From positions 1-36,755 of the forward strand of contig JAAYLC010000038.1 in assembly GCA_012522045.1 (NCBI GenBank): 36,755 nucleotides of DNA, read 5' to 3'. This document shows, in pieces, positions 4,262 through 20,589 of this stretch (its first letter is position 1; the number at the start of each line of letters is the position of its first letter). This stretch comes from Bacteroidota bacterium (GTDB lineage: Bacteria; Bacteroidota; Bacteroidia; Flavobacteriales; Flavobacteriaceae). A model generated the notes under the pieces. It saw only the letters and a program-made list of their open reading frames with translations. It ran no database searches and was not told the origin of the DNA. The translations under genes were made by a program, and so were the position numbers.

Positions 4262-5161
4262 TTAATAACTCCATAAATCCATTTCAATATTTCGGATTTG
4301 TTCTTTGATACGATCTGATTCAATGAGTTGCATCAACGCATTGTCCACAACATATTCATCGATGCTTCTGTCACCGTAGATATTGTCTTCTTTGTAAATT
4401 ACAGAGTTGAATCTTCTTGAATTTAACAAGTGATCGAAAGACACGGGTTGCGAGCTATTCTTGTTGTTGAACACCATGGCTTCGTGCAATACTTCTCTGG
4501 CATCCGGATAGAATATCCAGAAGAGCTCCACTGATGCATCAATATTATCATCAGGGTATGCTTTGGAACGTGCTTCATTTGCAACCGGACAAATTGCCAG
4601 CAAACGATATTTCAGTTCGCCCTGACGTTTGTCGATATACCAAATTCCTCGAATTCGATACTGTTGAACGTCGGCAGCATCCAAGGTAAAGCTACGAATA
4701 TACTGCGGATCAACAAAACCTTCGGCGTTCAGTTGTTCAATTCCCAAATCGGTTGTATCACTGTACACCAAAGAAGATGAAATATCCTGAAGGTCTCTTT
4801 TTTCGGTAAAATAAGAATCGGCATACACTTCTGTAATGCGACCGCTTTTGATACCTTTTACCAAGACATCGTACAGGGATCTTCTTTCTGAACCAATGTT
4901 GTTCGTGTCAATCGGATAATACAGCGGGAAATTAATTCGCTCGTCAAGATCGATGATTTCCCAGACTGTTTTAGACCATAATATATCTCTCTCATCTGTA
5001 TAACCGTATGGAAGCGGAGAATCATTGTCATAGATCATCTGCTCTTCGGTTTTTTTACCAATCTCTTGTGGTGTAGTGGCATTCAAGACATTTACCTGAG
5101 CATTGATTTGTGAACCTATCACCAGTCCAAAAACAGTTAAAACAACACTTTTCAAATTCAT
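4262..5161 (-). CDS. gldN: Gliding motility / T9SS protein GldN
   Basis: This 299-residue protein has an N-terminal signal peptide (hydrophobic run LKSVVLTVFGLVIGSQINAQ, cleavage after about residue 21). The segment TVWEIIDLDERINFPLYYPI is highly characteristic of GldN. GldN (PorN in Porphyromonas) is a periplasmic protein that binds the lipoprotein GldK to form the ring under the outer membrane in the type IX secretion system. The gene is the last of gldKLMN, 22 bp after gldM, and is followed at once by a strong terminator. Length agrees with the family. No sign of damage. Confidence 0.95.
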   Translation of the reverse strand: MNLKSVVLTVFGLVIGSQINAQVNVLNATTPQEIGKKTEEQMIYDNDSPLPYGYTDERDILWSKTVWEIIDLDERINFPLYYPIDTNNIGSERRSLYDVLVKGIKSGRITEVYADSYFTEKRDLQDISSSLVYSDTTDLGIEQLNAEGFVDPQYIRSFTLDAADVQQYRIRGIWYIDKRQGELKYRLLAICPVANEARSKAYPDDNIDASVELFWIFYPDAREVLHEAMVFNNKNSSQPVSFDHLLNSRRFNSVIYKEDNIYGDRSIDEYVVDNALMQLIESDRIKEQIRNIEMDLWSY

Positions 5162-5183
5162 ATCAATCGGTTTGTTTATATTT

Positions 5184-6764
5184 TTAGTTTGTCAACTCAA
5201 TAAACACTGGAGTAATTTTCTTCAGTTTGTAAGATGTATTGCCCACAATGGTGGCGTCAATATCAAATATTTGAACTGTTTCTCCTCGTTTAGCACGTCT
5301 CAATGTAGCGACGGCAGCTGCGTTTAATTTATCTCCACTTACTCTTACTGTCGGTTGTCCGGAAACTTTAAAGCTAAATCCGGTAACTCTTAGATTTAAG
5401 TCAAATTCAAAGTCCGGCAAGGTGGCTCCGACAGAAGAAATTTCAAGACCCTGACGCTGCATTCTAACAGGTCCTCCGTCACCGTCTTCTCCACGAATGG
5501 TTCCGGTTGGTCTGGGAACGTCTCTGATACGGAAAACAGAATTTGAACTTACAGGCTCACCATCAGGTAAAGTTCCACTCGCTGTGATGGTAACTTCTCT
5601 TCCCGCTCCGGGTCTCATGATATATTTGGAACCGGATACTTTTGTTAAGCCGGGTGCAGATGCATCCACGTTGTTATCCGGAATTCCGGGAATCGAAATG
5701 GTCATCGGGTTGTCCACACCACGATACACCACGTTCATCTTGTCTGCAGCAATTACCGCTGAATTTGGCTTTGAAATAGTTGCAAATGATACGTTTACCG
5801 GAATTTCAGTATCCTCTCCGTTTTCAACGAAAATCAAGTTTCCTTCAATTTTGTGGTCTCCGGGGCTTCCAGCTCCGATTTTCAACACCACTTTTCCGTC
5901 TTCAATTTCGTATTGATCAGAAGTCAAAGGACGCCCGTCAAGAGTCAATTCTACACGGTTTGGTCTTGTATTGGGGTCTTTTCTACCCAAAACAATAGCT
6001 CCCTCAAATTGCTCGCCTGAGTAATACGCACTTTTAGAAGTCTCCAATAAGGTGTTGTACTGCGTAAAAGAAAGAGCAGCTGCTTGCTGACCTGCCAACA
6101 TCGTTTGAAGAATTTCACTTTGTGTGTTTCTGATATCATTTTGAATTTGTGTCATCTTGGTTTTTGAAGCAATCATCGGAAAGCCTTGGAATTGATAATT
6201 TAACCAAGGTTCGGTTACCCCGTCACGTCTGGTAATATCAGGAGTTCCGAATTTTCTGTTGATGTCTTGAACAATAGAAGCATACGCCGGATTATCACCC
6301 AAAATATTGAGTAAATTCTCGCGGTATGAGTTCATGTTTTCAATGAACGCATTTCCAAGTTCGGTATATCCATCTCCCGAAAACAACATTTGATCCAAGT
6401 GATCTTTTGTATCTTGAATTTCGTAATTGTTCATGTCTTCCGGAGCAAGATTTGCACGCGCGTCTAATTGATTTTTTACATCAGCGATAAAAGCATCAAA
6501 ATCTTTAGACAACGTATTGATCTGATCTGCTTTTCGCTTGACTTCACCGTATTGTTCCGGCTGCGCGCTTGCTTGTTCGCTTAAATTATCTACGAATGCT
6601 GTGATTCGATTGTCCATCGAGACGTTGGACTCTTCTAGTCTTTCATTTAGAACACCGAAAGCAGTTAACACTTCTTTTGACATATTCAATGCTAGCATCG
6701 CAATGAATATCAAATACATCATGTTAATCATTTTCTGTCTCGGCGATAGTTTTCCCTGTGCCAT
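5184..6764 (-). CDS. gldM: Gliding motility / T9SS motor protein GldM
   Basis: The 526-residue protein starts with a short basic stretch, then one membrane helix (about 12-33, MINMMYLIFIAMLALNMSKEV), and the rest is periplasmic. This fits GldM/PorM, in which a dimer spans the inner membrane with GldL and reaches through four periplasmic domains (D1-D4) to the GldK/GldN ring. The helical region to about 220 corresponds to D1; the beta-rich remainder, with VVLKIGAGSPGDHKIEG, matches D2-D4. Together with GldL it turns the proton gradient into motion driving secretion and gliding. It lies 36 bp after gldL and 22 bp before gldN. Confidence 0.95.
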   Translation of the reverse strand: MAQGKLSPRQKMINMMYLIFIAMLALNMSKEVLTAFGVLNERLEESNVSMDNRITAFVDNLSEQASAQPEQYGEVKRKADQINTLSKDFDAFIADVKNQLDARANLAPEDMNNYEIQDTKDHLDQMLFSGDGYTELGNAFIENMNSYRENLLNILGDNPAYASIVQDINRKFGTPDITRRDGVTEPWLNYQFQGFPMIASKTKMTQIQNDIRNTQSEILQTMLAGQQAAALSFTQYNTLLETSKSAYYSGEQFEGAIVLGRKDPNTRPNRVELTLDGRPLTSDQYEIEDGKVVLKIGAGSPGDHKIEGNLIFVENGEDTEIPVNVSFATISKPNSAVIAADKMNVVYRGVDNPMTISIPGIPDNNVDASAPGLTKVSGSKYIMRPGAGREVTITASGTLPDGEPVSSNSVFRIRDVPRPTGTIRGEDGDGGPVRMQRQGLEISSVGATLPDFEFDLNLRVTGFSFKVSGQPTVRVSGDKLNAAAVATLRRAKRGETVQIFDIDATIVGNTSYKLKKITPVFIELTN

Positions 6765-6800
6765 TTTCTTAGTTTAGATATTAAAAATTAGTACAAGAAA

Positions 6801-7457
6801 TTAGTTTCTAGTTGTCATTGCAGAAAGCATCCCTCCATACACTCCGTTTAGAGAGGATAAGTTCGTAGCTAAATGACTCATTTGTTGCTGCAATTGCTCA
6901 GCATTTTCAGCAACTTGTTTGTTAACTTCTGCTTGTCTGCTTGCAGATTCTATTTGAATTTTATATAAGCTGTTTAAAGAATCCAATTGTGCTGCCGCCA
7001 ATGCCATTTCTTCGCTATACTTTTTAGTAGAGCTCATAACTTCAGTAACAGGAGCAATTCCTTTTGCAGCGCCTTCAAATGAACGAATACTTGCACTTAA
7101 ACTATTCATTAACTCAGCATCAATTCGTGCTTCTTTCAGCATACTATCCAATTTTTTGGACAATTGTGCTTCAGCTTCTTTATCTTCAACTTGTTTTTGC
7201 TTTTGTTTATCACGCGCAGGACCTCCTGCCAATTCCGGATAAACCAAAGACCAATCCACATCCTCATCAACCGGCTCGAAAGCGGATATAGCGAAAATAA
7301 TAGCCTCGGTTACAAGACCGATAGTTAATAAAAGGTTTCCTCCGATTCCCGCAATTTCGTAGTGGGTAATCTTAAATAACGCTCCAACAATTACAATTGA
7401 AGCTCCCAGCCCGTAGGCCATTTGAAATAACTTTTTTGAAGATTTCGATTTTGCCAT
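6801..7457 (-). CDS. gldL: Gliding motility / T9SS motor protein GldL
   Basis: The 218-residue protein has two membrane helices (about 13-29 and 38-58) followed by a cytoplasmic tail rich in Glu, Gln and Ala that should form a coiled coil. GLVTEAIIFAISAFEP in helix 2 places a buried glutamate at residue 51. In the GldL family the glutamate at this point has been implicated in proton-driven rotation of the GldLM motor. The gene follows gldK by 93 bp, the widest gap in the operon, which contains a short direct repeat. Family length and order are as expected. Confidence 0.95.
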   Translation of the reverse strand: MAKSKSSKKLFQMAYGLGASIVIVGALFKITHYEIAGIGGNLLLTIGLVTEAIIFAISAFEPVDEDVDWSLVYPELAGGPARDKQKQKQVEDKEAEAQLSKKLDSMLKEARIDAELMNSLSASIRSFEGAAKGIAPVTEVMSSTKKYSEEMALAAAQLDSLNSLYKIQIESASRQAEVNKQVAENAEQLQQQMSHLATNLSSLNGVYGGMLSAMTTRN

Positions 7458-7519
7458 GATTTTAAAAAATTAGTAATATAAATGTTTAGGGTTTAGTAAT
7501 TTGTTTAATGTATGTAGGT

Positions 7520-7557
7520 GGAATATGTTTTTAGTTTGGGGAATATGTTTTTAGTTT
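7520..7557. repeat. 20-bp-period direct repeat spanning the gldK stop codon
   Basis: GGAATATGTTTTTAGTTT occurs at 7520-7537 and again at 7540-7557, exactly 20 bp apart. The second copy contains the gldK stop codon (complement of 7551-7553). The first copy is therefore a duplicate of the gene's last codons placed in the gldK-gldL spacer. It looks like a recent slippage or tandem duplication. Confidence 0.8.
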
Positions 7558-8894
7558 TCTACTCCCATATAATCTTGTACCGTTCGGAAACCGATGTAAC
7601 TTCTTGCCGAATCAGCGTATTCGTAGTCTCTCGTACTTACTTGAAGGAAATATGCCACGTCTTTCCACGATCCTCCGCGAACAACTTTTCTCATGTTTTC
7701 CTCATCGTTTACACTCGGATTCATAGAAGATGAATATTCGTAAGAGTCCGGCGCATAAGATGAAGCTACCCATTCTGAAACGTTTCCTGCCATATTGTAC
7801 AGGTTGTATCCGTTGGGTTCGTATGATCGTGCTTCAACGGTATAAAGCGCATCGTCTGCGGCATAATCACCACGCAAGGGTTTAAAGTTTGCCATAAAAC
7901 AAGCGCGGTCATCTATAGTATAAGGACCTCCCCAAGGATATGATCCAGACTCGAGACCTCCTCGTGCGGCATACTCCCATTCTGCTTCACTAGGAAGACG
8001 GAAAGAGTTTACAAAATTTTGTTTTTTAGATTTTTGATACGCATTCTTATAGAGTGTCCTCCAAGCACAGAATGCTTTTGCCTGTTTCCAGTTTACACCA
8101 ACCACGGGATAATCTCCGTATGCCTCGTGCCAGAAATAGTCATTGTGCATGGGCTCGTTGTAAGAATAGTTGAAATCTCTGATCCAAACCGTAGTGTCGG
8201 GATAAATTTCAAGCTCCTCTTGTTTGATAAAATCACTTCTTCGCTTCCCTTTATTACGTGCAGCGGCTTCAATATCCATATAGGTATATTGGAATTTCAA
8301 TTTGCTCACGTCAATGGTTCGCTGTCCGTTATATGCTTCCTCAATAGGAATATACATCGTATCCATTACTTCGGCATAATATTCATCCGGATATTTTGAA
8401 GTGTCCCAGATAATATCAACTCTTTTGTTGATTTTACGTCCGGCGTAATAATCCTCACTGATACTGTAATAATTGTCATACATGTATTGATCGTAAGGAG
8501 TCATTTCTTCATTTTCCTGATCCAAGAATGCAAATTCTCCGATTCCGCCATCACCCGGAGTGGCTCCGACTTCATCAGCCATGATGGCCAATCTCAAACG
8601 GACGATAGAATCTCTCACCCAATAGACAAACTGACGGTATTCTGAATTGGTAATTTCAGTTTCATCCATATAAAAAGAACGAACGGTAACGGTTTTTGGG
8701 GGCGCATCATTTACACCTACAAAATCGTCGTCACTTTTTCCCATTATAAAAGATCCACCGGGAACCAAGGTCATTCCATACGGTTTTTGAGGATACCATT
8801 TTTTTCCTTTTACTCCTACAAGTTCTCCTCTGTCATTCTTATTACAACCAACTAAGAAAGCGAGTATCGCAATGAAAGCAATGTATTTATTCAT
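7551..8894 (-). CDS. gldK: Gliding motility / T9SS lipoprotein GldK
   Basis: The start was placed at 8894 (MNKYIAFIAILAFLVGC), giving a lipoprotein signal with Cys17 as the lipid attachment site; a longer reading to 8957 would add an upstream stretch overlapping the promoter. The mature protein is a formylglycine-generating-enzyme (SUMF1/FGE-sulfatase) fold: GMTLVPGGSFIMG at the beginning, FRLPSEAEWEYAARGG and NMAGNVSEWVASSY near the end, and VRGGSWKDV at the C-terminus. In GldK (PorK) this fold is structural: the protein forms the outer-membrane-attached ring with GldN. Length 447 agrees with the family. First gene of gldKLMN; a promoter candidate lies just upstream. Confidence 0.95.
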   Translation of the reverse strand: MNKYIAFIAILAFLVGCNKNDRGELVGVKGKKWYPQKPYGMTLVPGGSFIMGKSDDDFVGVNDAPPKTVTVRSFYMDETEITNSEYRQFVYWVRDSIVRLRLAIMADEVGATPGDGGIGEFAFLDQENEEMTPYDQYMYDNYYSISEDYYAGRKINKRVDIIWDTSKYPDEYYAEVMDTMYIPIEEAYNGQRTIDVSKLKFQYTYMDIEAAARNKGKRRSDFIKQEELEIYPDTTVWIRDFNYSYNEPMHNDYFWHEAYGDYPVVGVNWKQAKAFCAWRTLYKNAYQKSKKQNFVNSFRLPSEAEWEYAARGGLESGSYPWGGPYTIDDRACFMANFKPLRGDYAADDALYTVEARSYEPNGYNLYNMAGNVSEWVASSYAPDSYEYSSSMNPSVNDEENMRKVVRGGSWKDVAYFLQVSTRDYEYADSARSYIGFRTVQDYMGVEN

Positions 8895-8926
8895 GTGTAC
8901 GGTTAATTTTATTAAATACAAGGGCG

Positions 8927-8958
8927 TAAACGTATTTAAAAAATGTGAGAAATACAAT
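8927..8958 (-). promoter_or_regulatory. Promoter candidate for gldKLMN
   Basis: On the minus strand ATTG (8958-8955) is followed after 20 nt by TACGTTTA (8934-8927), one mismatch from TAnnTTTG. The predicted start lies ~25 nt before the gldK ATG. This suggests that gldKLMN can be transcribed separately from topA and the arginase-like gene. Confidence 0.5.
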
Positions 8959-16185: not shown

Positions 16186-17097
16186 ATGAACAAAGACACT
16201 TTTACATATTTGCTTGCGCATCCCGAAAAAACAAGCAGTTCGGAAGTCGTTTCTCTTGAAATGCTCTTGCGGACGTATCCTTTTTTTCAAAGTGCCCGTG
16301 CTTTGCAATTAAAAGGATTGAAAGACCAAGGAAGTTATCGGTACAACGATGCTTTAAAAGTTGCCGCCACGCATACAACCGACCGTGATGTGTTGTTTCA
16401 ATTTATCACTTCTGAGCATTTCATTCAGCATGAAATTTCAAAAAACATTCTGCAACACTCAGACGATGTCCATTCCATTTCCGTTGTTATAGACGATATT
16501 TCGGAAGCAGTCAAAACAGATGAAAACGCCCGTTTTGAGGAAGAAAAACAAAAAGCTGCTGCCATTCTCAATCCAAATTTATTTGAGCGAAAAACCGCAT
16601 CTATTGAAACGATGGTCGCCACGCATAGAGACAGCACCGAAGTTTCCGACACCACTGACATTCTCCAACCCAAACCTTTGGAGTTTACCAAAAAAGACAG
16701 ACATTCTTTTTCAGAATGGTTGAAACTTTCAAAACTTCAACACATCGACAGAAAAGAAGAAAAAAAACCGCTTGATGCTGAAGAGAATGACCCTTCACGA
16801 AATCGTCAAGCAGCCTTGATTGAAAAATTCATTCAGGAAAAACCGCGTATTGTTCCCGGAGCCCCGAAAGAAACGGTGGATTCGGTAGCGGATACGTTAA
16901 AAAAATCCTCTGATGAATACGGTAATAAAGAGGCGTTAATGACAGAAACTTTGGCGAATGTTTACTTACAACAACGCAATTTTAAGAAAGCAATTCAAGC
17001 ATATAAAATATTAATTTTGAAATATCCCGAAAAAAGTAGTTTCTTTGCAGACCAAATTCGGGCAATTGAAAAACAGATAAATCCGGAAGACACATGA
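16186..17097 (+). CDS. TPR-containing conserved protein upstream of secG
   Basis: The 303-residue protein has no signal peptide or membrane helix. The N-terminal ~80 residues (LLRTYPFFQSARALQLKGLK) are helical. The middle is charged and low in complexity. The C-terminal segment MTETLANVYLQQRNFKKAIQAYKILILKYPEKS is one clear TPR unit. Similar genes sit between lptE and secG in many Flavobacteriia, but a defined function is not known to me. The last bases overlap the secG start as ATGA (4 nt), which implies coupled translation and a link with Sec or envelope assembly. Confidence 0.75.
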   Translation: MNKDTFTYLLAHPEKTSSSEVVSLEMLLRTYPFFQSARALQLKGLKDQGSYRYNDALKVAATHTTDRDVLFQFITSEHFIQHEISKNILQHSDDVHSISVVIDDISEAVKTDENARFEEEKQKAAAILNPNLFERKTASIETMVATHRDSTEVSDTTDILQPKPLEFTKKDRHSFSEWLKLSKLQHIDRKEEKKPLDAEENDPSRNRQAALIEKFIQEKPRIVPGAPKETVDSVADTLKKSSDEYGNKEALMTETLANVYLQQRNFKKAIQAYKILILKYPEKSSFFADQIRAIEKQINPEDT

Positions 17098-17438
17098 GTA
17101 CGTTTACAATTTTTTTAATTCTGATAATGATCGTGGCCTTTTTATTGGTCATCGTTATAATGGTTCAAAACCCTAAAGGAGGCGGTTTGTCTTCATCATT
17201 TGGCGGCGGCGGTGGCGGTCAGATTGGGGGCGTTCAACAAACGGGAGACTTTTTAGACAAGAGTACCTGGACCTTGGCAACCATTATGATTGTATTGATT
17301 TTGGTATCCAACATCTTTATTATGGGTGGCAGCAGTCTGCAATCCAAAACTTTTGATGAAAATGCAGTTCCTGCGATACCTGCAACGGAAAATACGTTTC
17401 CCACAGGTGCAGGCGACACTACAGACACACCTGAATAA
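17094..17438 (+). CDS. secG: Preprotein translocase subunit SecG
   Basis: The 114-residue protein has two membrane helices (about 3-22 and 57-79) joined by a glycine-rich loop with MVQNPKGGGLSSSFGGGGGG, the SecG signature. SecG assists SecYE/SecA in moving proteins through the inner membrane. The C-terminal ~30 residues are a low-complexity acidic/Thr tail (ATENTFPTGAGDTTDTPE). It is translationally coupled to the TPR gene by a 4-nt overlap and is the last gene of the miaB-secG run; a strong hairpin follows. Confidence 0.95.
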   Translation: MSTFTIFLILIMIVAFLLVIVIMVQNPKGGGLSSSFGGGGGGQIGGVQQTGDFLDKSTWTLATIMIVLILVSNIFIMGGSSLQSKTFDENAVPAIPATENTFPTGAGDTTDTPE

Positions 17439-17631: not shown

Positions 17632-17715
17632 TCAGGGATTATCGTATTCGGGTTCTTGGGCATAACCATTTGAACAAAATAATGCAATAATAAAAAAATA
17701 GTAATAGTTCTTCAT
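17632..17715 (-). pseudogene. Truncated paralogue of the short secreted protein (27 aa)
   Basis: Reading the minus strand from the ATG at 17715 gives MKNYYYFFIIALFC, then SNGYAQEPEYDNP and a TGA. The signal peptide and cleavage region (NGYAQE) match the neighbour at 18438-18656 (TNGYAQEEYDEPE), but the frame ends 8 residues past the likely cleavage site. It lies just downstream of lipoprotein copy A, in the same relative place as the longer paralogue behind copy B. This marks a tandem repeat of a two-gene unit with the last gene cut short. Confidence 0.6.
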
Positions 17716-17766
17716 TAGTTAGAAGTTTTATGGTGGATATTTATAATTAAGTAGTGTACTCTTTAT

Positions 17767-18393
17767 TTATGGAAAACCGGTATTATTCACAGTACGCCAA
17801 TTAATATCAAAACGCCCTTCAGTAATCTCTATAAAATCGCCGGGGTCATCCCTGTTTACCATAGTACAGCTAAACGTGCCTGAAACAATCCCATTTTCGT
17901 AATCATAGCGGGTAATAGTAAGTGTCCCGCCGTTTTCTATGGAGCAGTACCACTTAAAAACTTGTGCTTCCTTATCCCACCATCTGGCTCTTATATTAAT
18001 GGAATGGTTTGCTTGCCCCAATCTTTCGCAATTGCTTTCCTTTATAGAAAAAGTACCTTCCCCATTTTTATGCAAGTCAATAATATGTAAATCTAATAAC
18101 CCTCCATTTCCGCTCTTATAATCCCTCACATTGATTTCATCATAAACATAATTTGGAGAATCTCCAAATGCGGAGAACCACATTCCCTTGTTCGGGGGAA
18201 TAGCTGCTGTTCCATCCCGTGGTATTAACAGTTTCCCATCCACATAGCAGCCAAAGGTGTTTTCTCCGGTTTGGGTTATGGGCGGTAGGGTAGGAACAAA
18301 GGCATCGTCATCGTTATTACAGCCTCCTGCCCCTAAAAGGAAAAATGATAGTATTGCCGGTATCAGGATATGGTTTTTTAACAGTGTTTTCAT
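17767..18393 (-). CDS. Putative surface lipoprotein, copy A
   Basis: This 208-residue protein has a signal peptide ending LLGAGGC with Cys25 as lipid site, followed by NNDDD. Acid-rich residues just after the Cys match the Bacteroidota export signal that sends lipoproteins to the cell surface. The mature part begins TQTGENTFGCYVDGKLLIPRDGT and ends FIEITEGRFDINWRT; the layout resembles DUF6252-type proteins (tentative). The start at 18393 was chosen because copy B begins with the same MKTLLKNHILIP; a longer reading to 18456 only covers a repeated leader. The first 62 residues are identical to copy B and the rest has diverged. Function unknown. Confidence 0.8.
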   Translation of the reverse strand: MKTLLKNHILIPAILSFFLLGAGGCNNDDDAFVPTLPPITQTGENTFGCYVDGKLLIPRDGTAAIPPNKGMWFSAFGDSPNYVYDEINVRDYKSGNGGLLDLHIIDLHKNGEGTFSIKESNCERLGQANHSINIRARWWDKEAQVFKWYCSIENGGTLTITRYDYENGIVSGTFSCTMVNRDDPGDFIEITEGRFDINWRTVNNTGFP

Positions 18394-18428
18394 GACTTCT
18401 GTTTTTTGTTTATTTGTTAAATATAATC
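18391..18428. repeat. 38-bp leader repeat, copy 1 (upstream of lipoprotein A)
   Basis: These 38 bp, from the start codon of lipoprotein A back through its leader, are identical to 20047-20084, which is the start codon and leader of the beta-barrel gene. The promoter half beyond it differs: here the -7 region reads ATATTTTG rather than the consensus TACTTTTG. Confidence 0.85.
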
Positions 18429-18437
18429 CAAAATATT

Positions 18438-18656
18438 TTAACACGAACTCCAACAAGGGATTCTTGTTGTATCGTTAAAAACATCAAGTTGTGCCCAGGG
18501 AAAAACCCGTTCATACAGCACCCCGGAGGTAAATTCTTCCTTATCAATGTTTATCAACAGACTGTCTATATTGACTTCGGGTTCATCATATTCTTCCTGG
18601 GCGTAGCCGTTTGTAAGAAAAAGTATAGCGATAACGAAAGGTAGTAATTTTTTCAT
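18438..18656 (-). CDS. Short secreted protein, probably the N-terminal fragment of a longer gene
   Basis: The 72-residue reading has a clear signal peptide (MKKLLPFVIAILFLTNGYAQ, cleavage after about residue 20) and a mature part EEYDEPEVNIDSLL, then FTSGVLYERVFPWAQLDVFN and a short tail ending IPCWSSC. The conserved-looking text stops abruptly near DTTRI, just where the DNA turns into the leader repeat of lipoprotein A. This suggests the 3' part was lost when the unit was duplicated. It sits 44 bp after lipoprotein B. It may still be translated as a small secreted peptide. Function not recognised. Confidence 0.55.
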   Translation of the reverse strand: MKKLLPFVIAILFLTNGYAQEEYDEPEVNIDSLLINIDKEEFTSGVLYERVFPWAQLDVFNDTTRIPCWSSC

Positions 18657-18700
18657 GGTAGTTTGTTTTGGTTAAAATAATAGTGTTGTTATCTTTGTTT

Positions 18701-19327
18701 TTATGGGAAATTTCCGGGTAATTCATTCCATTTAATATCAAAACGACCTTCTGTAATCTCTATGAAATCATTCGGGTCATCCCTGTTCACGGCAGTACTA
18801 TTAAAAGTTCCTGATACAATTCTATTCTCAAAATCATAGCGGGTAATAGTAAGTGTCCCGCCGTTTTCTATGGAGCAATACCATTTAAAAGCCTGTGCTT
18901 CCTCATTCCACCATCTTACAAAAAGATTAATATTGGGATTAGCATCCACATTAGCTTTACAATTGCTTTCATTTATTGTATAAGTGCCCTCACCATTTTG
19001 CTGTAAATCTGTAATATGAAGAGTTAAAAGTCCTCCATTACCACTTTTAAAATCTCGAACCATTATTTCGTTATATGTAAAATCTGTTGGACCTGGTCCT
19101 GCAATAAACCTTAACCCAGAATCAGTAGTGTGTAAGGATCCCGTGCCATCCCGGGGAATCAGGAGCTTGCCATCCACATAGCAGCCGAAGGTGTTTTCAC
19201 CGGTTTGGGTAATGGGTGGCAAGGTAGGAACAAAGGCATCGTCATCGTTATTACAGCCTCCTGCCCCTAAAAGGAAAAATGATAGTATTGCCGGTATTAG
19301 GATATGGTTTTTTAACAGTGTTTTCAT
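18701..19327 (-). CDS. Putative surface lipoprotein, copy B
   Basis: This 208-residue paralogue of copy A has the same signal peptide, Cys25 and NNDDD surface-export-like signal. The DNA is nearly identical for the first ~106 bp of the gene (one difference). The mature domain then diverges, with many replacements in the middle (SLHTTDSGLRFIAGPGPTDFTYNEI against the matching part of A). The C-terminal ITEGRFDIKWNE is again similar. The start at 19327 (MKTLLKNH) is set by alignment with copy A. It follows the beta-barrel gene by 29 bp on the same strand and is probably co-transcribed with it. Function unknown; DUF6252-like at best. Confidence 0.8.
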   Translation of the reverse strand: MKTLLKNHILIPAILSFFLLGAGGCNNDDDAFVPTLPPITQTGENTFGCYVDGKLLIPRDGTGSLHTTDSGLRFIAGPGPTDFTYNEIMVRDFKSGNGGLLTLHITDLQQNGEGTYTINESNCKANVDANPNINLFVRWWNEEAQAFKWYCSIENGGTLTITRYDFENRIVSGTFNSTAVNRDDPNDFIEITEGRFDIKWNELPGNFP

Positions 19328-19356
19328 GTTTTTTATTTTTGTCAAGAAAAGTGTTA

Positions 19357-20049
19357 TTACTCGCCTGTTTCATTTTTAAAATTATACTTAACCCCAAAAC
19401 TTATTAAATTATTTCTTAAGTAATGATTTCTGTTTCCCAAAAGAGTCGATGTATAACCCTTCTCTGTACCAGTCAAAAGATCAAGTTCTGCATATATCGC
19501 CATTTTTTTATTTATAAAATAATTAAATCCGAATCCTGCATTAGCGCTTCCATATTCGTTTAAATAGTCTTCTGTTGGCATATTTTCAGAATAGTTGATA
19601 TATTCACTCTTGGTTTCTATTGTATAACCATAGCCCAGTTTTAGATGTCCTTTTAAATTTTTATACAATCTAAATTCCCACTTTAAATTGAAAGGAATTG
19701 TAATTAAAGTTCCTCTAAATGTTCCATGCCTTTCATCAGTACCCAACCAGCCCGTAGTAGATGGCTCATAGAACGAAACGCCTGCTTTATAATACTTAAC
19801 TTTGCCTGACAGACTCCACTGTTTTCCAAAATAATATTCTGCCAATACACCTCCTTGAAAAAACTGTGCGGATTCCCCCACATTAAAATCATAAACACTG
19901 TTTATTCCAATTTCTGCCCCAAAATACCAGGTATTCTTTGGGTTTACAATTTCCAATTCTTGCGAAATAGTTTTGCCGGAAAGTAAACTTAAAACAATAA
20001 ACATCAGCATTTTTAATTCTAATTTCATTTTAAGTAGATGCATTATCAT
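19357..20049 (-). CDS. Outer-membrane beta-barrel protein (porin-family-like)
   Basis: The 230-residue protein has a signal peptide (hydrophobic LKMLMFIVLSLLSGKTISQ) and then alternating amphipathic strands with many aromatic residues: WYFGAEIGINSVYDF, WSLSGKVKYYKAG, GHLKLGYGYTIETKSEY, GFGFNYFINKKMAIYAELDLLTG. It ends ISFGVKYNFKNE, a typical last strand. This matches a small 8-stranded outer-membrane barrel (OmpA/OprF-type or porin-family). The start at 20049 is favoured because the ATG plus leader recur as a repeat in front of lipoprotein A; internal ATGs at 20043 and 20028 are possible. First gene of the accessory cluster; a consensus -7 box precedes it. Confidence 0.8.
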   Translation of the reverse strand: MIMHLLKMKLELKMLMFIVLSLLSGKTISQELEIVNPKNTWYFGAEIGINSVYDFNVGESAQFFQGGVLAEYYFGKQWSLSGKVKYYKAGVSFYEPSTTGWLGTDERHGTFRGTLITIPFNLKWEFRLYKNLKGHLKLGYGYTIETKSEYINYSENMPTEDYLNEYGSANAGFGFNYFINKKMAIYAELDLLTGTEKGYTSTLLGNRNHYLRNNLISFGVKYNFKNETGE

Positions 20050-20084
20050 GACTTCTGTTTTTTGTTTATTTGTTAAATATAATC
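20047..20084. repeat. 38-bp leader repeat, copy 2 (upstream of the beta-barrel gene)
   Basis: Identical to 18391-18428. It spans the start codon and the 5' leader of the beta-barrel gene, 1656 bp from the first copy and in the same direction. Confidence 0.85.
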
Positions 20085-20091
20085 AAAAGTA
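20084..20091 (-). promoter_or_regulatory. -7 promoter motif of the accessory cluster
   Basis: On the minus strand TACTTTTG fits TAnnTTTG exactly and lies 34 bp ahead of the beta-barrel ATG. It should drive the beta-barrel, lipoprotein and short secreted genes. Confidence 0.55.
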
Positions 20092-20161
20092 TTTCATTCC
20101 CATTCAAGAAAGACAAGCTTAAATGCTTTGTGTCTAGCTAAACAATCCAAAAATCAAAGTT

Positions 20162-20313: not shown

Positions 20314-20589
20314 ATGGCATTAAAAATTCAACCGTTAGCAGATCGCGTTCTGGTAGAACCGCAAGAAGCCGAAACAAAAACAGCTTCAGGTATTTATATC
20401 CCGGATTCTGCAAAAGAAAAACCACAACAAGGTAAAGTCGTTGCAGTAGGAAACGGAAAAGAAGATCACAAAATGACTGTAAAAGTCGGTGATACTGTTC
20501 TCTATGGAAAATATTCCGGAACAGATTTAAAATTTGAAGGCAAAGATTACCTTATTATGAGAGAGGATGATATTCTCGCCATCATCTAA
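20314..20589 (+). CDS. groES: Co-chaperonin GroES
   Basis: The 91-residue protein is the heptameric lid of the GroEL folding chamber. [44 protein letters not shown] contains the mobile loop, and [33 protein letters not shown] the C-terminal part; length and motifs are as expected. The ATG at 20314 (MALKIQPL) was preferred over an in-frame TTG two codons earlier. It is followed 92 bp later by groEL. The intergenic region contains a small inverted repeat, GTTGAAC (20594-20600) with GTTCAAC (20620-20626). Upstream are two further inverted repeats but no CIRCE element. Confidence 0.97.

Follow-up and report, generated by a model that had tools for sequence, protein, structure and literature searches.

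Why do two tandem lipoprotein genes of a Flavobacteriaceae-like bacterium begin almost identically and then diverge, and what are the short ORFs that follow each of them? We analysed a window of 36,755 nucleotides on one contig (C222) of a genome of 2.69 Mb in 247 contigs (93% complete); GroES and GroEL are 93% and 91% identical to those of Aequorivita. The interval between secG and groES holds a beta-barrel gene, lipoproteins B and A and two short ORFs, all on the minus strand (Table 1) and in the order described by the initial annotation: barrel, lipoprotein B, secreted ORF, leader with lipoprotein A, truncated ORF. The T9SS core genes gldK, gldL, gldM and gldN lie about 9 kb from the lipoprotein locus within the same window, and the host therefore very likely has a T9SS. 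A search of the lipoprotein site found no RNA element or tRNA.

Table 1. Features of the secG-groES interval and its surroundings in the window.
Feature	Position	Strand	Evidence or remark
gldK, gldL, gldM, gldN (T9SS core)	4262-8957	-	
secG	17094-17438	+	one flank of the interval
27-codon remnant of another, diverged hydrolase N-terminus copy (MKNYYYFFIIALFCSNGYAQEPEYDNP)	17632..17715	-	no further hydrolase sequence up to secG
Lipoprotein A, Riean_0653 family (NF052634), downstream copy, retained	17767..18393	-	143.8 bits, cut-off 57
Lipoprotein A 5' part (signal peptide and linker, codons 1-34), near-identical to lipoprotein B	18292..18393	-	recent recombination tract
52-bp leader ahead of lipoprotein A (5' UTR and start codon, -7 element probable)	18387..18438	-	49/52 identical to the barrel leader
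Hydrolase N-terminal stub, about 66 residues of homology, 72-codon ORF	18438..18656	-	tblastn to T9SS-exported alpha/beta hydrolase
Lipoprotein B, Riean_0653 family (NF052634), upstream copy	18701..19327	-	148 bits, cut-off 57
Outer-membrane beta-barrel protein (OMP_b-brl)	19357..20049	-	PF13505, E 4.6e-12
Same leader ahead of the barrel gene	20043..20094	-	49/52 identical to the lipoprotein A leader
groES	20314-20589	+	other flank of the interval

Lipoproteins A and B are tandem paralogues of 208 amino acids each with 75% protein identity, in line with the tandem duplication first proposed, and both exceed the curated cut-off of the Riean_0653 family in NCBIfam, with which they share length and lipobox. 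Each has CNNDDD after the lipobox. This had been called a surface-export-like signal, and it agrees with the published Bacteroidetes lipoprotein export signal (LES), an acidic stretch at +2 to +6 relative to the lipobox cysteine that both proteins have; over 68 family members, acidic residues at +2 to +7 average 2.5, against 0.8 expected from the cores. On these signals, A and B are probably surface-exposed lipoproteins. Their C-terminal halves show a weak likeness to the DUF5025 and DUF6252 lipoproteins of Pfam, with scores below the curated cut-offs. The AF2 model is all beta (pLDDT 87.6) but had no match in the PDB at E <= 1e-3, and sequence searches for a clue to the fold returned matches at chance level only; the fold was dropped as a guide to function.

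Counted from the ATG, A and B differ at a single site in the first 102 nt or so and are about 70% identical over the remaining gene, which bears out both the near-identical 5' end and the downstream divergence noted at the outset. Identity along the gene is 0.45-0.7 in mid-gene and rises again at about codons 145-165. The longest identical runs, of 75 and 46 bp, were matched in 0 of 20,000 codon shuffles, and for silent codons alone the longest run has p = 0.0015. In codons 1-35 dS is 0.04, whereas in codons 36-208 it is 1.69, with dN 0.226 and dN/dS 0.13; codons 36-62 encode identical protein at a dS of 2.4, and silent sites in codons 63-143 are saturated. Because dS is 0.04 in the one part and about 1.7 in the other, with dN/dS about 0.13, we regard A and B as old, constrained paralogues with a recently common 5' end. 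Two explanations had been offered for this mosaic, gene conversion at the 5' end or selection for a changing exposed part; the runs and the low 5' dS uphold recombination, while diversifying selection on the core is unsupported, with no dN/dS above 1 in the variable part (codons 36-208, A against B). A recent neutral duplication is rejected by the dS outside the 5' tract.

Most tandem arrays of the Riean_0653 family show the same combination of constant 5' end and diverged core. Among 36 tandem pairs, 86% resemble each other more closely in the signal peptide than in the core; for pairs taken from different genomes, with cores at least 0.5 identical, the figure is 7%. L154 and L155, two species of the same genus, have orthologous cores that are 92% alike and signal peptides that are 65% alike, each signal peptide being 92-98% alike to those of array neighbours with other cores; constant parts have recombined with variable parts. 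Recombination that shuffles diverged cores under a constant leader explains the array pattern, and point-mutational diversification does not. The array ahead of a hydrolase at L152:2674-8393 counts about nine whole or partial lipoprotein genes, which fall into two sub-families and share signal peptides.

A leader including the start codon had also been recorded ahead of both the barrel gene and lipoprotein A, at 38 bp. The two copies share 37 identical bp including ATGA, or 52 bp at 49/52 (E 5e-18), and are the only ones with at most 3 mismatches in the 2.69 Mb genome (reversed control, 0). The leader contains a TAnnTTTG-like element, which from its consensus we take to be a promoter element, and would thus have a promoter role. 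A related barrel stands ahead of a lipoprotein-hydrolase pair in Aureibaculum (L029). The idea that the barrel and the exposed lipoproteins form a variable surface module is accordingly supported in one part, the barrel beside lipoproteins in relatives, and not in the other, selection acting on point substitutions.

The ORFs that follow the lipoproteins were annotated as NGYAQE-type secreted genes of 72 and 27 codons. The ORFs exist, but they are not genes of their own. In tblastn the 72-aa ORF matches the beginning of a large gene that lies immediately downstream of a lipoprotein in relatives (Altibacter, Lutibacter, Lacinutrix, Polaribacter, Aureibaculum, Aequorivita and others), and it aligns with residues 1-66 of hydrolases of about 1000 aa, which rules out a small secreted protein gene. 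Judged by alignment, both ORFs derive from the N-terminus of a single large secreted hydrolase and are truncated. The 72-codon ORF stops exactly at the start of the lipoprotein A leader, and no further hydrolase sequence was found between the 27-codon remnant and secG. Both copies lack the nucleophile elbow, hydrolase domain and C-terminal sorting domain of a T9SS-exported hydrolase, and cannot be active because they end after about 66 and 27 codons. In the hydrolase model most of residues 12-52 score below 50 pLDDT and confidence is low over most of the stub region, which gives no support to the stub as a folded independent domain. Comparisons of stubs with full-length hydrolases give dN below dS, in sequences too short to prove constraint.

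Full-length homologues of the 72-codon ORF, which the initial annotation had proposed to look for, are alpha/beta hydrolases of about 770-1140 aa with a signal peptide. The members scanned have the domains Abhydrolase_1, PGAP1 and DUF676 and the T9SS sorting domain Por_Secre_tail (the sorting-domain match of the L024 hydrolase is weak), and a GPSMGG nucleophile elbow and other blocks are common to eight aligned hydrolases; full-length relatives thus combine elbow, hydrolase domain and sorting tail. Foldseek with the AF2 model matched solved esterases and lipases, at up to E 9e-7, and from sequence and model together the enzyme is predicted to be of the lipase/esterase type. T9SS polymorphic toxins with TANFOR (PMC7073777) are similar in being large secreted proteins of Bacteroidota with small partner genes adjoining. 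They differ in that a Pfam scan of three of the present hydrolases reported no TANFOR or polymorphic C-terminal toxin domain, and in that the enzyme domain here is conserved.

A scan of genome contigs and two surveys, of 200 genomes of the family and 396 of the order, gave 51 distinct loci with family lipoproteins. At 27 of these 51, which were chosen for strong family scores so that no fraction of them is an unbiased frequency, a hydrolase, whole or frameshifted, lies directly downstream of the lipoprotein or lipoproteins. Where both are present the order is lipoprotein(s) then hydrolase, and the reverse was seen 0 times; L154, from another family of the order, has three lipoproteins and then a hydrolase of 1007 aa. 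Altibacter lentus (L020) and Aureibaculum flavum (L029) each have an intact pair with a single lipoprotein gene. About 24 loci have at least two lipoprotein copies (nine at most). The pairing is not obligatory, because at about 20 loci the lipoproteins have no adjacent hydrolase, and beside five hydrolases the partner's place is taken by a barrel or an unrelated lipoprotein. Eight separate loci have isolated hydrolase N-terminal stubs, with 47-80 residues of homology, that lie amid the lipoprotein copies or behind them (the window, C15 of the same genome, L030, L033, L101, L153, L158 and L162), and every stub ends within the first tenth of the hydrolase gene. Weak further remnants occur at L024 and, by inspection, at L163. 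In the literature we found no comparable system, whether of T9SS effectors with immunity proteins or of tandem lipoproteins, and the lipoprotein/T9SS-hydrolase module, which is widespread in Bacteroidota, is apparently undescribed.

Several individual loci deserve mention. L162:6456-7510 has two 64-aa hydrolase stubs, one behind each of two lipoprotein copies; they agree in mature sequence and C-terminus and differ in signal peptide. A 94-aa ORF between two lipoproteins at L151:4795-5076 resembles a hydrolase with an internal deletion, its signal peptide being joined to a KPLIVVEGFD segment. After an orphan lipoprotein, the ORF at L164:4818-5153 joins a signal peptide to a Fic-like HPFIDGNGR motif. 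Repeated Riean_0653-like domains are found at C135:3500-4100 of the same genome as the window and in similar proteins of about 450 aa elsewhere.

The chromosomal site itself recurs. Between secG and groES, Aequorivita sp. UBA3180 (L032) has a leucine-rich-repeat (LRR) protein, a lipoprotein and a hydrolase of 1056 aa, and A. vladivostokensis (L025) has two lipoproteins and a frameshifted hydrolase. In the latter, at L025:10773-11842, the second lipoprotein gives way to sequence from the middle of the hydrolase, another decaying copy. The hydrolase also occupies this spacer, in differing orientation, in four further genomes of several genera (L109, L110, L112 and L117), where a barrel, LRR protein or other lipoprotein lies upstream of it. 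Its presence in Aequorivita and these four genomes makes the secG-groES interval a recurrent home of the hydrolase. The single intact unit of Aequorivita sp. UBA3180 is the kind of relative that would have pointed to a recent neutral duplication in the window, but the paralogues are too old for that. A second, diverged array in the same genome as the window (C15:9000-11585, L011) has several lipoproteins, one or more of them broken, a 70-residue hydrolase stub and a hydrolase of at least 1046 aa.

We think it fairly probable that the locus is a decayed lipoprotein/T9SS-hydrolase module whose surface lipoproteins work with an exported hydrolase, and in which a constant leader has been recombined onto diverged cores. 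Such a module consists of at least one export-signal Riean_0653 lipoprotein, usually with a barrel of the outer membrane or a leucine-rich-repeat protein sorted by T9SS alongside, followed by a large secreted alpha/beta hydrolase with a T9SS tail. The locus in the window would, most parsimoniously, have arisen from an ancestral order of leader, barrel, lipoprotein and hydrolase by an old tandem duplication of the lipoprotein and the hydrolase start, ending inside the latter. The hydrolase body would then have been lost from both copies, and the 5' part of lipoprotein A would later have been replaced by the barrel leader and the start of lipoprotein B, with the ATGA common to both start sites as the junction. 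A constant promoter and signal segment on long-diverged cores would give several core variants one expression and export signal.

The lipoproteins are probably displayed on the cell surface and may be partners of the exported hydrolase, on which its activity, anchoring or handling would depend; A and B, intact with no local hydrolase, may serve the related C15 hydrolase or have a separate role. In a Riemerella study (PMC7881567), hemolysis was lost in transposon mutants of Riean_0653 and regained with the lipoprotein ORF alone, and the purified protein was not hemolytic. This mutant phenotype and the T9SS lipase-like neighbour in half of the loci are why we favour a surface partner of the hydrolase. 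Distances between cores and between hydrolases are correlated (Spearman 0.34, Mantel p 0.0025, with shared ancestry not removed), and lipoprotein copies proximal to the hydrolase are not consistently better matched to it than distal copies; tight lipoprotein-hydrolase co-evolution was not adopted as an explanation.

The Tle lipases of T6SS have lipoprotein inhibitors, Tli, and these pairs share features with the present loci: an alpha/beta-hydrolase lipase adjoins a lipoprotein, and lipoprotein copies are tandem or orphan. The Riean_0653 lipoproteins might likewise be immunity proteins that protect the cell against its own T9SS lipase and those of neighbours, A and B having been kept after loss of the local enzyme. 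The arrays of diverged copies, some orphan and without enzyme, would fit, as would the retention of A and B under purifying selection and the finding that half of the arrayed copies have their nearest core relative in another genome. A precedent is Tle3/Tli3, a phospholipase and an outer-membrane lipoprotein inhibitor (PMC9860674). The present hydrolase differs, however, in its export: relatives have a signal peptide and Por_Secre_tail, not T6SS delivery, and the lipoprotein gene is upstream. Injection into neighbours by T9SS is not known, the hydrolase domain is conserved and not polymorphic, and some intact hydrolases have no family lipoprotein upstream. Moreover, the reduced hemolysis on loss of Riean_0653 reported in Riemerella (PMC7881567) is the opposite of what loss of an inhibitor should give, unless effects were polar or indirect. 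We consider immunity possible but unlikely.

A related reading, which we hold to be doubtful, is that the copies are leader-anchored cassettes, a constant promoter, signal and export segment being recombined onto variable cores that recognise or neutralise T9SS lipases of the cell and its neighbours, with the stubs as scars or recombination anchors of cassette capture.

Decay in the window and elsewhere could also mean that the whole locus is neutral wreckage, with A and B as leftovers of an inactive module and the 5' identity as incidental gene conversion: both window hydrolase copies are broken, the L025 and L149 hydrolases are frameshifted, and L021 and L102 have lipoprotein pseudogenes. 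This is improbable for A and B, which keep intact 208-aa frames and a dN/dS of 0.13 at a dS of about 1.7 (constraint that could partly predate hydrolase loss) and identical protein over codons 36-62 despite saturated silent sites. Antigenic or phase variation, in which the constant 5' end would feed variable exposed cores and so evade phages or predators, shares the constant leader and recombining cores of most arrays but is improbable, as copies are mostly complete genes, A against B gives no positive selection, and no silent cassettes, invertible promoter or invertase/recombinase were noticed among the neighbouring ORFs of the inspected loci, which included one genome of the genus.

The Riemerella study (PMC7881567) is the sole functional report on the family that we found; tandem arrays, a neighbouring T9SS hydrolase and hydrolase stubs do not feature in the passages of it cited here. 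Until now the family was known from nothing but this hemolysis-defective mutant. Here it is linked to a conserved secreted T9SS lipase-like enzyme, and the role of the lipoproteins thereby becomes directly testable. The comparison also exposes a repeated genome pattern of variable lipoprotein arrays, hydrolase stubs and homogenised 5' ends in Flavobacteriales and beyond. If the leader-anchored cassette reading were true, surface repertoires in these bacteria would be built by repeated recombination onto long-lived cores.
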